From contig JAWAHN010000002.1 of assembly GCA_038889235.1 (NCBI GenBank), positions 230,288 to 294,287 of the forward strand: a stretch of 64,000 nucleotides of DNA, in the 5' to 3' direction. Source of the DNA: Candidatus Jordarchaeales archaeon (GTDB lineage Archaea > Asgardarchaeota > Jordiarchaeia > Jordiarchaeales > Freyrarchaeaceae). Numbering within the stretch: position 1 is the first letter of the stretch; each line of letters opens with the position of its first letter. The notes below the pieces were generated by a model. That model worked only from the letters and a program-made list of their open reading frames with translations, was not told the DNA's origin and ran no database searches. The position numbers and the translations under genes were made by a program. Shown here one piece after another: positions 28,460-37,694 of the stretch.

Positions 28460-31400
28460 CTACTTCGGTGTGAATGTAACTGTTATCAGGGCGTTTTGAA
28501 CGAGTTTGCGTGGGATCTCCCTGAGTTCCCCCCTCACTTTTTCGAAGAAAATCATTCCCAAGTAGTATGATTCGGTGTTTTCCGGTCTTGGAACTTTCCA
28601 CACCAATGGTTCTCCTGTTATTTTTTCTATTTTCCCTTTGGTAAGCGTTAACTCAGCTGTTTTCCGCATAATAACCTTCTTGGTTTTCTTTTCGAATATG
28701 GCGAAAACAGCTCTTACTTGCAGCGGGTAATCCGTGAAGCTCTGAACAGCCGGTGAAATTTTGTACTCTAGCTCTTTTTCTATCTGTACGAACTCTGAGA
28801 GGGGTGGTGTGCTCAAGTATGCCACCCTCAATACAGGTCTTACAGCTTCAACTTTCACGTACCTTTCACTAACCCATCCTAATTCCTCTCCTTTTCTAAC
28901 TTCAAACCTAAGTTTACACTCTTTTCCCGTCGCAAAGAGGGGAGCCTTCACAGGTATCTTAACGAGAACTCTTTCTTTCGCTCCCATCTTCACCGGTATA
29001 GTTTCCTGCAAAACAACGGCACCGTCAACGGATTCCATATATACTAGGTCAAATGTCAACGGACTGTTCACATTGTTTTCAAGCTGGATTATTATATCTT
29101 GAAGAGTTCCCGGCGCCATAATTCCCGGTATTTCATGCAAAAAGACATTTACCGCCTCTTTCAGACCTATCACATTGACTTCCGCACAGTCCTCAATTAT
29201 GCTTCGCCCCTCTTTTATCAAAATAGCCTTCACAGTAAACTTTCCAACATGATTAGGAGCGGTTATGGGGGGTATGTCTATCACGGAGTCCAATATGGGT
29301 TCCTTCAAGGGTATCACTGCTTCTTTTACCTCCCCCGCCTGAGACACCGTCTTTACTACGAGGTCACACGGCACTAGTGTTCTGCTAAGCCCTCTTATCT
29401 CAACTTTCCCTGTGAACGGCGACCCTAACGCGACAGTTCCAGGCATCGATGTAAGCTTCAGAAATGTTTCTTGCCCCCTAACCACTCTGAATTTTATAGG
29501 CGTCTCAATAAGGTTTATGAGTTCTCCATTGTGGAAGACTTCCGCAGTGAAGTACATTGTGTCCTCGTTCTTGCCACTTTCCAGAACATCATCTGTAATA
29601 ACCCACTTAATTGGTATGTTCGTTGATACCCCCGGTTTAACCGACAAATCGAGGATTTTCTTCTCTGCCCCAGTGGTCATGGATTTAACCTTTACTATAA
29701 TGTTGACCGGGGTTGGCGAAAGCAACTCACTCGCGTCAACCATTACCTTGCTCTCCAGAGTCTCTCCCACATTGTAAGTTTGCTTAGGAATGCGTCCAAA
29801 CTCTACTGAAACCATTGCTCCCTGGAAGAAAACCCTGAAGTCCCTAGACCACGCTTCCGATACAACTCTTCCACTCGAATCTATTAATTGCGCTCTTATA
29901 GAACATCTTGGGCTAATCCACGAGCTGTAGAGCCACGGCTTCAAAGTGAGCGGCTCTATTTCAACCCAGCTCCCCTCAGCCTGCCCCTCCAATACTGCTT
30001 TCGCCCAATCGAGCTTCGCCGTCTCTTCCGACATCGCAACAAAGAGAACTTGGTCTCGTGCCCTTATAGGTTTAAGGTACACCCCCCACGGTTTGATGTC
30101 ACTCGTCACGTAGTCAAGCTCACGGCCACTGTCCTTATCCACTACCGACACTTTGAGAGTTAGATACACGTCCTGCGGCGTGGTGTTTTCAACAGCAACT
30201 ATGAATGGTATTTCGGTCTCACCAGTCACTATTACTCCGTCGACCTGCGCTATCAAGTCTGCTTTACAGTTAACCCTGTAAACAGGTATCGCCAGCTTCT
30301 CAACAGCAACCGTCTCAGACGAGACAGCCAGTTCGGCGCTAAGCGTGTACTGTGAGATCCCCACTTCCGTCTCAAACTCCATTTCGCCGTACCTTCTTTC
30401 TCCGGGTTCTAGAGCGTCTAGGACAAACTCCTCCACAAGCACTTCTTCACCCTTCTGGTTCACTACAACGCACCTCAAAGTGAGGTCTCTTAACACCTCA
30501 TTTCCCTTGTTTTCAACGAACACTTTGCAAGTCACAGTCTGGCCCTCAAACACCATGGGTGTCTCAAGGACCGTTTCAAGCGAGACTGGCACCGTAACAA
30601 ACTCTTGTAGGTTCGGGGTCCCCATCAGCGGGTCGCTCCATATGTTGTTGCTCGTTTGATCAGCAATTATCTGCAGCTCCCTTGCCAAGCTCTCGATGTC
30701 CTCCCCCAGTTCAAAGAACTTTTCAAGCTGGTAGTCTGCGGTAGTCATCGGAGCAATCACATTTCCTGTCAAGTCGCCGTAAACACTGATCAAAAGTGGG
30801 TTCAGATACTCCGACTTCAAAAGCCCCAGCTCATCAAGCTCCTCCCTCAAGAAGAGGAACATGTTCTTTACAGCGTCCACTAATCGTTTCACAGGCTCTC
30901 TACCGCCAGACTTAAGGTCGAAGAAGTACGAGCGCGCAAAGTCAGGGTACCTTTTAACGAATGCGTCTAGATCCCTTGGCTTGTAGAAAGCCCCCGTAAG
31001 CCCCCACCTTATCGCCGATCTCCTGTTTTTCACTAGCGTTTCCGAATCTACATCTGGTATCTCTTCCCCAGCATCGAGGAGCCTCTTAGCCTTGAGGGCT
31101 ATTGCTTGAAGGAGAGCGGCTATGGCAACCTTTCTTATTACACTTATTTGGCAGTCAAAAAATCTGATTTCAACAGTGCCGTACTTTGTGAATGGGTACA
31201 TGTCGCACATCCTGGCAGGTGTACGTCCAATAGTTTTTTCGAAAAACTCTTCGTCGAGAGATTTAAGGTATGGAATGTAGTGTTGCGGGTCATCTGGCCC
31301 AAGCTGTCGAACATTAAGCTGAAGCCTTATGCTTCTAACACAGCCTGGGGCTTGAAGTTTTCCGTCTTTCAGCGTGACGATATCTGTTGGCCGCCCATTC

Positions 31401-32002
31401 ACAAAGGGAGAATTAACCGAGAGCGCTATCAGGTGGGGTATGAATGCGCGAATAAGGTTATAAACGGCAAGCCGCAACTTCGGGTCGGGGACGCCTATGT
31501 GGTGGTGGTCTCCGAAGCTTAGCCCTTGCTGATATTCCATCAACGGGTTTAGACCAGTCATTATGAGTTTAACTCCCGCAGGTAGGGAGTCGTGTGAAAG
31601 TTTAATCAGCGTGTGAAGCCACCAGGCAAGTTCTTCTAAGCTTTCACAGGGAGGTGTGGCTACTTCCAAAATCCACGTTATGGTTCCTATGTGGGGGTCG
31701 CGTCCCAGCACTTCTACATCCACTTTCTTTCCGTCGGGGAGAGTGTACGTTAAAATCAGGGTTTCTCCTCTTCTTTCAACAGGTGAGACCCTAATGTTAG
31801 ACGTCTTCTTACCTATTCTCCTAACTAACTCATCCTGTGGCTCCTTGAGAATCGCTTTGAGTTTGTCTGCAACATCGTGAACGATTTTCCCCATTATACT
31901 AACCATTTTCTCTCCGTCAATCCAGCGTCCCTTCAAGTTCACTATTTGAATCTCTGACTCTATGCCATGTGTGAACGGCAATTTCAAACTTGGTAAACTC
32001 AC
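28460..32002 (-). CDS. Giant fusion: GCS2-like carboxylate-amine ligase plus tandem beta-sandwich domains
   Basis: 1180 residues. The first about 450 match the glutamate-cysteine-ligase family 2 pattern: GIESEI (Glu15, Glu17), GDHHHIGVP (166-172), and GTVEIRFFD (275-283), residues that bind Mg-ATP and the carboxylate in that superfamily. From about 465 to the end the protein consists of repeated 100-150-residue all-beta segments with CARDB/Ig-like wording (VFVENKGNEVL, FIVAVENTT, IIIQLENNVNSP). No signal peptide or membrane segment. I know no such fusion. Third gene of a minus-strand operon; only six bases separate it from the previous stop. Confidence 0.65.
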   Translation of the reverse strand: MSLPSLKLPFTHGIESEIQIVNLKGRWIDGEKMVSIMGKIVHDVADKLKAILKEPQDELVRRIGKKTSNIRVSPVERRGETLILTYTLPDGKKVDVEVLGRDPHIGTITWILEVATPPCESLEELAWWLHTLIKLSHDSLPAGVKLIMTGLNPLMEYQQGLSFGDHHHIGVPDPKLRLAVYNLIRAFIPHLIALSVNSPFVNGRPTDIVTLKDGKLQAPGCVRSIRLQLNVRQLGPDDPQHYIPYLKSLDEEFFEKTIGRTPARMCDMYPFTKYGTVEIRFFDCQISVIRKVAIAALLQAIALKAKRLLDAGEEIPDVDSETLVKNRRSAIRWGLTGAFYKPRDLDAFVKRYPDFARSYFFDLKSGGREPVKRLVDAVKNMFLFLREELDELGLLKSEYLNPLLISVYGDLTGNVIAPMTTADYQLEKFFELGEDIESLARELQIIADQTSNNIWSDPLMGTPNLQEFVTVPVSLETVLETPMVFEGQTVTCKVFVENKGNEVLRDLTLRCVVVNQKGEEVLVEEFVLDALEPGERRYGEMEFETEVGISQYTLSAELAVSSETVAVEKLAIPVYRVNCKADLIAQVDGVIVTGETEIPFIVAVENTTPQDVYLTLKVSVVDKDSGRELDYVTSDIKPWGVYLKPIRARDQVLFVAMSEETAKLDWAKAVLEGQAEGSWVEIEPLTLKPWLYSSWISPRCSIRAQLIDSSGRVVSEAWSRDFRVFFQGAMVSVEFGRIPKQTYNVGETLESKVMVDASELLSPTPVNIIVKVKSMTTGAEKKILDLSVKPGVSTNIPIKWVITDDVLESGKNEDTMYFTAEVFHNGELINLIETPIKFRVVRGQETFLKLTSMPGTVALGSPFTGKVEIRGLSRTLVPCDLVVKTVSQAGEVKEAVIPLKEPILDSVIDIPPITAPNHVGKFTVKAILIKEGRSIIEDCAEVNVIGLKEAVNVFLHEIPGIMAPGTLQDIIIQLENNVNSPLTFDLVYMESVDGAVVLQETIPVKMGAKERVLVKIPVKAPLFATGKECKLRFEVRKGEELGWVSERYVKVEAVRPVLRVAYLSTPPLSEFVQIEKELEYKISPAVQSFTDYPLQVRAVFAIFEKKTKKVIMRKTAELTLTKGKIEKITGEPLVWKVPRPENTESYYLGMIFFEKVRGELREIPRKLVQNALITVTFTPK

Positions 32003-34463: not shown

Positions 34464-34471
34464 TTTAAAAA
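34464..34471 (+). promoter_or_regulatory. TATA box of the tRNA-Cys gene
   Basis: TTTAAAAA lies 29-36 bases upstream of the first tRNA base, the standard archaeal box A distance for a transcript starting a few bases before the tRNA. Confidence 0.55.
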
Positions 34472-34515
34472 CTCCTTTTTCGTCTAATTGGGCTAGAGAG
34501 CCGGGGTGGCCGAGA

Positions 34516-34546
34516 ACACTTTCTCCCATTTTAGAGAGTGTCGGAA
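34516..34546 (+). other. tRNA-Cys intron 1 (31 nt, D-loop)
   Basis: Central helix CCGA (34510-34513) with TCGG (34541-34544); 5' bulge GA|A and 3' bulge AA|A, each cut after the second base; inner helix CACTTTCT (34517-34524) with AGAGAGTG (34533-34540). Inserted about position 16/17. Confidence 0.75.
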
Positions 34547-34554
34547 ACGGTGAG

Positions 34555-34575
34555 TCCCTTTTCTGGGGGCATTAA
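34555..34575 (+). other. tRNA-Cys intron 2 (21 nt, D-stem 3' side)
   Basis: Central helix GGTG (34549-34552) with CATT (34570-34573, two G-U pairs); 5' bulge AG|T, 3' bulge AA|G; inner helix CCC (34556-34558) with GGG (34567-34569). Outer helix is weak. Removal restores the D-stem strand GGC ahead of A26. Confidence 0.65.
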
Positions 34576-34589
34576 GCAGCGGACTGCAG

Positions 34590-34602
34590 TGTTCACGCAG
34601 TC
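34590..34602 (+). other. tRNA-Cys intron 3 (13 nt, canonical 37/38)
   Basis: Central helix CTGC (34584-34587, includes most of the anticodon) with GCAG (34597-34600); 5' bulge AG|T and 3' bulge TC|A; outer helix is the anticodon stem itself. Confidence 0.85.
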
Positions 34603-34624
34603 ATCCGCCACACCGGGGTTCAAA

Positions 34625-34642
34625 ACCTTCAAAAGGTGAAAA
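34625..34642 (+). other. tRNA-Cys intron 4 (18 nt, T-loop 59/60)
   Basis: Central helix TTCA (34619-34622) with TGAA (34637-34640); 5' bulge AA|A and 3' bulge AA|T; inner helix CCTT/AAGG; outer helix is the T-stem. Removal gives a normal TTCAAAT loop. Confidence 0.85.
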
Positions 34643-34691
34643 TCCCTGCCCCGGCTCCAACTCATTTTCCGGCTATGTGAGATGGTGTTTT

Positions 34692-35315
34692 ATGCCTGTC
34701 TCTCTAACTCCAAGTGTTGTCAAGAAAATTTCTTTGGCAGTTGACGCACTCTTAACTATCTGGTCTATTATTCGTTCCTCCTCTCCGAGCTATACACTGA
34801 AAGATGAGGAAGAAAAAGAGTTCGTTGAAAAGTTGTCATTGGCCTACCAACTACTTTCAGATCTGGCTTCCACTATGGGTGTTAAACAGCAACGTGAGAG
34901 CGGACTCGACGAAGTATTTTCAAAGTTGAAGCCGGACGAAACACTCATCCTCGTCGTTTCGCCGTCTTTCATGAGGCAACTCGTGAAGGCTGGTGTTCCG
35001 AGAGAAAAGGTAGTTGCTGTGGGGGGGCCGCTAACTAGCGAAGACGTCAAATTACTAAACCCTAACATCTCTGAAGAATCCGTGGCAAAAATTGAAGAGC
35101 GTCTAAAGTCTTTTTGGAGGGAGCTTGAAAGAAAAGCTAAGGGTATACGTACAGTGCTCCTGGTTCTAGAGAAGGGTGGTAAGGTTGACGAGATGATAGC
35201 CAGTCGCTCAAACTTGTTATCTGAAAAATTAGGAGTTGAAGTCAAGCCAATTTACCTGAGTGGTTTTGAAGATCAGTTCATAAGTGCTCTACCACAATTC
35301 TTTAGAAAGGAGTGA
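34692..35315 (+). CDS. Candidate SepCysE-like partner of SepCysS
   Basis: 207 residues. N-terminal about 65 residues are helical (VVKKISLAVDALLTIWSII), then an alpha/beta part with LILVVSPSFMRQL, KVVAVGGPLTSED and IRTVLLVLEKGGKVDEM. It lies 32 bases after the tRNA-Cys gene and its stop is five bases before the SepCysS start, so it is almost certainly in the same operon. In methanogens the SepRS-SepCysS complex is assembled by SepCysE, a protein of about this size with a helical N-terminal binding domain; I assign this only by context and shape. ATG chosen behind GATGGTG. Confidence 0.5.
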   Translation: MPVSLTPSVVKKISLAVDALLTIWSIIRSSSPSYTLKDEEEKEFVEKLSLAYQLLSDLASTMGVKQQRESGLDEVFSKLKPDETLILVVSPSFMRQLVKAGVPREKVVAVGGPLTSEDVKLLNPNISEESVAKIEERLKSFWRELERKAKGIRTVLLVLEKGGKVDEMIASRSNLLSEKLGVEVKPIYLSGFEDQFISALPQFFRKE

Positions 35316-35320
35316 GCTGT

Positions 35321-36523
35321 ATGCCCCTTAGTCCCGACCGGCTTTTAAAGTACTACAACCTCACGAGAAACACCGAAATAGAAGCCATAAACCTCCACCC
35401 GATTCAAAGCGGAGGAAGAGCGGGGAACTATCCTGGGGTTGTTAAAGCAGTATTGAACTTCATAGACGGGTATAGCACGTGCGACTACTGTATTAAAGGT
35501 AGACTTAATGAAATCGAAACCCCTCCCCTACGCGACTTCCACAGCGACCTAGCAGAGTTCGTAGAAATGGACGAAGTACGCCTCCTACCCGGGTGCAGAC
35601 AGGCTCAATTTGCCACTTTCCACAGTCTAGCGAAACCCGGCGACTACATAGTTATTGACTCCTTAGCACACTATTCAACATACCTCTCCGCCGAGAGAGC
35701 TGGCCTAAAAATAGTCGAGGTCCCCAACACAGGCTTCCCTTATTTCGAAGTACCACCCGAACTCTACGCTGAAAAAATAGAAGAAGTCAAAAGGGAGACT
35801 GGAAAACCACCAGCCTTAGTCTTCCTCACTCACGTTGACTACTCTTATGGTAATCTCGCTGACGCCAAAAAGGTTGCAAGGATATCTCACGAGTATGATG
35901 TACCTTTCGTCCTAAACTGCGCATACACGGTAGGCAGAATGCCTGTCTCCGGACGGGAGCTGGAAGCCGACGTTATAACTGCCTCGCTGCATAAATCTTT
36001 TGCATCACCAGCTCCGTCTGGGCTCATCGCAGCTAAGGAAGAATATGCAAAACAAATATTCAGGAGATCTACGGTGAAAGGGGAGTGGAGTGGAAGGACG
36101 TTTCCCAACAAAGAAGTGGAGCTCCTAGGATGCACTCTTCCAGGATGCGTCGCTATAGGTGTAATGGCTGCATTTCCATATGTGGTTGAAAGAGTAAAAC
36201 ATTGGGATGAAGAAGTGAAGAAAGCTCGTTACTTCTCAAGCCAGTTAACGAGGATAGAAGGTGTCATCCAGCTCGGGCAGACCCCACACAACCACGACCT
36301 CCTTCACTTCGAAAGCTCCTCATTCTTCGAGATCGCTAAAAACCATCCTAGAAAAGGCTTCTTCCTCTATGACGAGTTGAAATCCCGAGGAATTGTAGGT
36401 GTTCAACCAGGGCTTTCGAAATCTTGGAAGTTATCAACTTATGGCCAAAGCTGGGAGAACGTTAAAAGGGCAGCCCAAGCATTTCTTGAAATAGCTGAAA
36501 AATACGGCATCCCTGTCTCGTGA
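35321..36523 (+). CDS. pscS: Sep-tRNA:Cys-tRNA synthase (SepCysS)
   Basis: PLP enzyme that turns O-phosphoseryl-tRNA(Cys) into cysteinyl-tRNA(Cys) using a sulphur donor. Family marks: opening with LNLHPIQ-type INLHPIQSGGRA, the essential pair CDYC (Cys54, Cys57), PLP lysine in SLHKSFASPAPSG (Lys225), and GCTLPGC (Cys271, Cys276) corresponding to the third catalytic cysteine. 400 residues is normal. ATG at 35321 has AAGGAGTGAG upstream. The partner SepRS is not in this window; presence implies the tRNA-dependent cysteine route. Confidence 0.92.
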   Translation: MPLSPDRLLKYYNLTRNTEIEAINLHPIQSGGRAGNYPGVVKAVLNFIDGYSTCDYCIKGRLNEIETPPLRDFHSDLAEFVEMDEVRLLPGCRQAQFATFHSLAKPGDYIVIDSLAHYSTYLSAERAGLKIVEVPNTGFPYFEVPPELYAEKIEEVKRETGKPPALVFLTHVDYSYGNLADAKKVARISHEYDVPFVLNCAYTVGRMPVSGRELEADVITASLHKSFASPAPSGLIAAKEEYAKQIFRRSTVKGEWSGRTFPNKEVELLGCTLPGCVAIGVMAAFPYVVERVKHWDEEVKKARYFSSQLTRIEGVIQLGQTPHNHDLLHFESSSFFEIAKNHPRKGFFLYDELKSRGIVGVQPGLSKSWKLSTYGQSWENVKRAAQAFLEIAEKYGIPVS

Positions 36524-36659: not shown

Positions 36660-36917
36660 ATGTTCTGTCCTAAAGATGGAGCCCTGATGACTCCTAAAAA
36701 GAAAGACGGTAAGACAGTTCTAGTTTGTAAAAAGTGTGGTTATGAGGCGCCGGTTTCTGATGATAAAAAGTACAAGCTGGTTGTAAAAATACCACATACG
36801 ACGAAAGATAAAATTGCGGTCGTTGAAAAAGAGATTAACCTTTCCTTCAAACAAGACGAGGAAGAGAGGGAAGAGCTCAAGAAGCAAGTGCTCGAGTTCC
36901 TCGCCGAAGAAAGTTGA
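36660..36917 (+). CDS. RPB9/TFS-type N-terminal zinc ribbon protein, lacking the C-terminal ribbon
   Basis: Starts MFCPKDGALM with a second knuckle VCKKCGYE, exactly the N-terminal zinc ribbon of archaeal TFS (TFIIS/RPC11-like cleavage factor). Normal TFS is about 105-110 residues and has a second ribbon carrying the catalytic DE dipeptide; here the 85-residue protein ends in a Lys/Glu-rich helix instead. It may bind RNA polymerase as an Rpb9-like or inhibitory factor without cleavage activity (inference). Confidence 0.72.
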   Translation: MFCPKDGALMTPKKKDGKTVLVCKKCGYEAPVSDDKKYKLVVKIPHTTKDKIAVVEKEINLSFKQDEEEREELKKQVLEFLAEES

Positions 36918-37034: not shown

Positions 37035-37694
37035 GTGTCAGACTCGCTGAGGGAACATTTGCTCAGGGAAGTGGAACGCTGTATAGTGATGCTCAACGGC
37101 GGAGAGCTTGAAACGCTCATTAATAAATGTCTGGAGCGTGGTTTATCTGCTCTTGAAATACTAGATGCTATGGCGAGGGGTATGGAGGAAGTGGGGAGGA
37201 AATATGAAGCACAGGAATATTTTTTAAGTGAGCTTATTTTTAGTGGAGAAATTTTCAAGAAAGGAATGAAGTTGCTTGAACCGTATTTGAAAGGCGAATC
37301 GGTTGGAGAAACGAGAGGCGTCGTGGTCGTCGGTACGGTGATGAACGACCTGCACGATATAGGAAAAAACATTTTCATTACACTCCTGCTCGCCGCTGGG
37401 TTTAAAGTAGTCGACTTAGGAGTAGACGTTCCCCCGGAAAAGTTTGTTGAAGCAGTTAAGGAAAACGACGCCAGCATAGTCGGCATATCCGCCCTTCTGA
37501 CAAGCACCGCACCCGGAATACGCGAAGTCGTCAAACTGCTCGAAAAGGAGGGGTTAAGGGAAAAAGTCAAGGTAATAGTGGGTGGCGCCGCCCTAACGCA
37601 CGAAATGGCCAAGGAACTAGGAGCGGACGCTTACGCCGAGACAGCAGTTAAAGGAGTCGAAATATGTAAAAAATGGGCAGCAGGTAGTGTTTAG
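37035..37694 (+). CDS. Corrinoid (B12-binding) protein of methyltransferase systems
   Basis: Two domains: a helical cap (1-90) and a Rossmann-like cobalamin-binding domain with the base-off motif DLHDIG (D105-x-H107-x-x-G110), VGISALLTST and VIVGGAALT. Such MtaC/MtbC/MtgB-type proteins shuttle methyl groups between a substrate-specific methyltransferase and a second carrier. No methyltransferase or reactivase gene is adjacent, so the substrate is unknown. GTG start behind AGGAGGGT. Confidence 0.87.
   Translation: MSDSLREHLLREVERCIVMLNGGELETLINKCLERGLSALEILDAMARGMEEVGRKYEAQEYFLSELIFSGEIFKKGMKLLEPYLKGESVGETRGVVVVGTVMNDLHDIGKNIFITLLLAAGFKVVDLGVDVPPEKFVEAVKENDASIVGISALLTSTAPGIREVVKLLEKEGLREKVKVIVGGAALTHEMAKELGADAYAETAVKGVEICKKWAAGSV

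Follow-up and report, generated by a model that had tools for sequence, protein, structure and literature searches.

In the transsulfursome of Methanocaldococcus jannaschii (SepRS-SepCysE-SepCysS; structures 3wkr, 5x6b and 5x6c; PMC5688128), the N-helix of SepCysE binds SepRS, whose loops ILDEF, FNGE and ALVSN grip it, residues 35–101 bind SepCysS and residues 111–213 bind tRNA. SepCysE without the N-helix has been reported in Sec-using Asgard archaea, where SepRS was suggested to be detached (PMC8762117). The locus described here shares with the M. jannaschii system the N- and C-terminal domains (NTD and CTD) of SepCysE, the active-site features of SepCysS and the presence of SepRS, but its SepCysE lacks both the N-helix and linker 1; like the published Asgard protein, it is helix-less and comes from an apparently Sec-using host. 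The main text of Mukai et al. (2017, PMC5424206) describes a SepCysE-SepCysS operon in AK8/W8A-19 archaea, which like the present host have SepRS, encode Sec and carry selenophosphate synthetase (SPS) in two fragments; unlike the cluster reported here, that main text mentions no leading tRNA-Cys and no introns. According to the same main text, an operon of Bathyarchaeota BA2 (tRNA-Cys-SepCysSn-SepCysS-SepRS) likewise begins with tRNA-Cys, followed by an adaptor piece and SepCysS, but in place of a whole adaptor it has just the N-terminal peptide SepCysSn, and it contains SepRS, whereas our host has a SepCysE homologue and encodes SepRS elsewhere. The pathway, the SepCysE-SepCysS operon and the helix-less Asgard SepCysE are thus all known (PMC5424206, main text; PMC8762117), and the linkage that the preliminary description singled out as striking is new only in part, the operon having been published already, probably from the host's own lineage. 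In the literature we found no earlier description of a four-intron tRNA-Cys heading such a cluster, of the linkage across two families, or of CysRS coexistence in this order, and a search for Freyarchaeia with SepCysS returned nothing.

The window, the whole 64-kb stretch of DNA that was analysed (C2:230288-294287), belongs to a 2.14 Mb, 95% complete genome of an Asgard archaeon from a hot spring, a member of the Jordarchaeum group. Its features at the locus are:

34464..34470 (+), TATA-like box TTTAAAA, 36 nt 5' of the tRNA start
34500..34659 (+), tRNA-Cys(GCA) precursor with encoded CCA, discriminator U73 and four putative introns
34515..34546 (+), putative intron 1, D-loop at about 15/16, 32 nt, relaxed HBh' motif, boundary ±1 nt
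34555..34575 (+), putative intron 2, D-arm at about 22/23, 21 nt, relaxed HBh' motif
34590..34602 (+), putative intron 3, canonical position 37/38, 13 nt, full bulge-helix-bulge (BHB)
34625..34642 (+), putative intron 4, T-loop at 59/60, 18 nt, full BHB
34692..35315 (+), SepCysE homologue (DUF2100, PF09873), 207 aa, helical NTD and Toprim-like CTD, no N-helix
35321..36523 (+), SepCysS, 400 aa, TIGR02539 match, PLP lysine and conserved cysteines

SepCysS is 86–87% identical to its counterparts in same-genus MAGs named Candidatus Jordarchaeum or Jordarchaeia and 69–70% identical to those of a sister family (Freyarchaeota/Jordarchaeia); these named relatives come from a pattern scan with 13 hits, which is no survey of all archaea. 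On this comparison the host is assigned to Jordarchaeia (Asgard), which we regard as identical with Freyarchaeia. Both names appear in records of the sister family.

The three genes lie head to tail. The spacings given in the preliminary description are exact, with 32 bases between the tRNA end and the ATG at 34692 and 5 bases between SepCysE and the SepCysS ATG at 35321; translation of SepCysE from the GTG at 34677 instead would lengthen the protein by five residues. Gene order was compared in eight genomes of the order, four of the host's genus (host included) and four of the sister family, and the order tRNA-SepCysE-SepCysS is kept in seven of them; the eighth contig begins too late to tell. 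In the three congeners, tRNA-Cys is followed after 27–31 nt by SepCysE and this after 2–5 nt by SepCysS, while in three sister-family genomes 174–194 nt separate the tRNA from SepCysE, whose frame overlaps that of SepCysS. The same order in three other species of the genus argues that the arrangement is not due to chance. A TATA-like box sits 34 nt before the tRNA in the three congeners also, and no TATA-like match was found in the tRNA-SepCysE gap of any of the four genus members, which points to one transcript. Together with the short gaps, this suggests that tRNA-Cys, SepCysE and SepCysS are co-transcribed.

The adjacency might instead be historical: tRNA and enzymes would share a mobile or inherited cassette and not be functionally coupled. 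Compact tRNA-Cys-SepCysSn-SepCysS-SepRS cassettes are said in the main text of PMC5424206 to spread by transfer, and other Asgard families (f19, f20) carry SepCysE and SepCysS, adjacent in the host, on separate contigs. We consider this explanation unlikely, as the order has been kept across two families despite diverged intron sequences and spacing. One further Asgard bin (G159) also has SepCysE adjoining SepCysS, but the contig is short, resembles those of the sister family and may have been binned wrongly.

The 207-aa protein, proposed earlier as the SepCysE scaffold from its size and helical N-terminus, matched the family profile (PF09873/DUF2100) with 69.7 bits against a cut-off of 23 (E = 4e-19), as did all 26 Asgard relatives (26/26); among control genomes, M. 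jannaschii alone matched in the DUF2100 search. A profile of the 26 Asgard members in turn recovered MJ1481, the SepCysE of known structure (E = 1.4e-14). In the AlphaFold model (pLDDT 90.4), two helices form the N-terminal part and the CTD shows the strand-helix order published for SepCysE; the sole significant PDB match of the model by Foldseek was M. jannaschii SepCysE (5x6b_F, E = 2.7e-5); model and match agree in the architecture of helical NTD and Toprim-like CTD. The TM-score to 5x6b is modest (0.45–0.51), as expected when two domains are flexibly joined. On helices 4 and 6, the Lys-rich patches for tRNA binding are thinner than those of MJ1481, though not devoid of basic residues. By profile and predicted fold, 34692-35315 is a SepCysE homologue, conserved throughout the order.

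The predicted helical N-terminus corresponds to the SepCysS-binding domain, and the separate SepRS-binding N-helix that a methanogen scaffold would carry is missing. The Asgard profile aligns only from residue 48 of MJ1481, in which the N-helix precedes the NTD (residues 35–101), and the helix is missing in all 26 Asgard sequences. By sequence, the protein is of the DUF2100, helix-less Asgard type and not a methanogen-type SepRS bridge. Because the N-helix is missing, we regard the protein as a tRNA-delivery arm rather than a fixed SepRS bridge, probably carrying tRNA to SepCysS without bridging SepRS and SepCysS. A complete transsulfursome, in which SepCysE would still bridge the two enzymes by a different surface or with the help of an additional partner, would fit the presence of genes for SepRS, SepCysS and SepCysE and the conservation of the adaptor in the whole order. 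It is, in our judgement, quite improbable: only 32 nt separate the tRNA from the start codon, too few to encode an N-helix, and ILDEF, FNGE and ALVSN, the SepRS loops gripping the helix in M. jannaschii, align here to ETKLG, a gap and VLEEG, although the alignment is weak in this region.

The identification of 35321-36523 as SepCysS holds. It matched TIGR02539 with 493 bits (cut-off 365), and the PLP lysine, the conserved cysteines and the Gly-Phe of the U73 gate are kept, in the motifs ASLHKSFA, CDYC, LGC and RKGFF that align to the M. jannaschii enzyme; gate arginine 345 is replaced by lysine.

No tRNA was reported in the window by ARAGORN or Rfam, because the gene is interrupted by four putative BHB introns. 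After their removal, a tRNA of 75–76 nt with GCA anticodon, U73 and all parts of the cloverleaf is obtained, which ARAGORN calls tRNA-Cys (GCA) in all four genus members; the same precursor lies 5' of SepCysE in these four species. The tRNA-Cys identity proposed in the preliminary description therefore stands; the multiple putative introns are absent from that description. With this call and the profile matches, the grouping of tRNA-Cys, a SepCysE-family protein and SepCysS in one cluster is confirmed. Among the four species, 73 of 76 exon positions do not vary, against 35 of 84 in the introns. The central helices of the two introns with full BHB motifs are CUGC/GCAG (intron 3, kept as a G-U in one species, G072) and UUCA/UGAA (intron 4, whose removal leaves the T-loop UUCAAAU). 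Intron 1 has a conserved 3-bp central helix, CCG/CGG. The boundaries of introns 1 and 2 rest on relaxed motifs with little covariation; such HBh' motifs are known at non-canonical intron sites (PMC4090602). The insert in the D-region was also considered as a single intron, or as two with other boundaries. We preferred the CGGYGAG/GC boundaries, since removal of intron 2 then restores the D-stem GCC/GGC in 4/4 species, the D-arm resembles that of the sister family, which seems uninterrupted, and the central helix of intron 2 stays paired at 3/4 positions in all species.

Canonical and non-canonical BHB introns likewise occur in one gene in Freyarchaeia and Atabeyarchaeia (passages of PMC11291895) and in Thermoproteales (PMC4090602); the largest number that we found in the latter, a review, was three introns per tRNA gene, compared with four putative ones here. 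The host genome has two different tRNA_int_endo genes (tRNA splicing endonuclease subunits), and two-subunit splicing endonucleases have been linked to unusual introns (reviewed in PMC4090602). That 34500-34659 is a pseudogene with an intact copy elsewhere, which would suit the invisibility of the unspliced gene to ARAGORN and Rfam, is scarcely credible given exons far more conserved than introns, full BHB motifs at two sites, a spliced form called as tRNA-Cys, a search of the genome with the Cys anticodon-arm pattern in which this gene was the sole match, and intron-bearing tRNA genes amounting to 92–95% of the total in Freyarchaeia/Atabeyarchaeia (passages of PMC11291895). Sister-family tRNA-Cys genes also carry several insertions, in the anticodon arm, the T-loop and apparently the variable region (L019 3-153, L020 519-668, and L023 upstream of SepCysE). 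RF00005 gave only 20 tRNA matches in the host genome, and other tRNA genes of this genome have insertions at unusual positions (L070 1501-1610; L073; L074; L076).

SepRS is encoded in the host genome (525 bits), as anticipated, preceded by Taw1/TYW1-like and translin (TRAX) genes and followed by riboflavin kinase and FAD-synthase-like genes, a neighbourhood near the 'most complete', ancestral SepRS operon of PMC8762117. Neither result that would have overturned the preliminary description was obtained, the fold being similar to SepCysE and SepRS being encoded. No CysRS was found in the 95% complete assembly (nothing above 41 bits), which does not prove its absence, about 5% of the genome being missing. 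The expectation that CysRS would be lacking was borne out to this extent in the host and fails as a rule for the lineage: full-length CysRS is present in five of the eight genomes of the order, one of the same genus (G074) and all four of the sister family, in each case beside SepRS, which argues that both cysteine routes coexist in the order.

SepSecS is also encoded in the host (498 bits). SPS is found in two overlapping frames (L106 1438-2539), the first with an in-frame TGA in the motif HG*ACKLPQ. SepSecS and the TGA within the active-site motif of the split SPS show that the host uses Sec, and Sec recoding has been reported in Jordarchaeia (PMC9723677). The split SPS also suggests that the host lineage is the AK8/W8A-19 lineage. 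A convincing tRNA-Sec was not found in the host genome; a weak RF01852 match at C2:40794 was rejected, as by inspection it reads as tRNA-Leu(UAA).

Other genes in the window include a 1180-aa protein (28460-32002, −) that matches glutamate-cysteine ligase family 2 (GCS2) close to its N-terminus and continues in a long tail to which no Pfam family matched, and a short TFS-like zinc-ribbon protein (36660-36917, +) that at 42.7 bits falls under the transcription factor S cut-off. A corrinoid protein related to dimethylamine MtbC (37035-37694, +) fits the non-methanogenic methylotrophy reported for the host lineage.

We think it likely that the three genes are transcribed together and serve the second step of tRNA-dependent cysteine synthesis, with an adaptor unanchored to SepRS. 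One promoter 5' of the tRNA would probably drive all three genes; tRNA end-processing would release the tRNA, and a two-subunit splicing endonuclease would remove its four introns. SepRS, encoded elsewhere, would charge tRNA-Cys with phosphoserine, and SepCysE, as the delivery arm of SepCysS, would probably bring Sep-tRNA-Cys to this enzyme. Such an arm would also give tRNA-Cys preference over Sep-tRNA-Sec, the intermediate that a Sec-using cell makes in parallel. We propose, tentatively, that Jordarchaeia use a 'half transsulfursome' in which the unanchored SepCysE would serve solely as the tRNA-grasping arm of SepCysS and, expressed on the same transcript as the four-intron tRNA-Cys, may sort Sep-tRNA-Cys from Sep-tRNA-Sec.

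The locus brings together, in one conserved Asgard cluster, the tRNA on which cysteine is made, the adaptor and the enzyme, and the tRNA-Cys gene at its head is one that standard tools missed wholly. A natural adaptor without the SepRS anchor makes the role of SepCysE, as bridge, tRNA handler or Sec/Cys sorter, open to experimental test.
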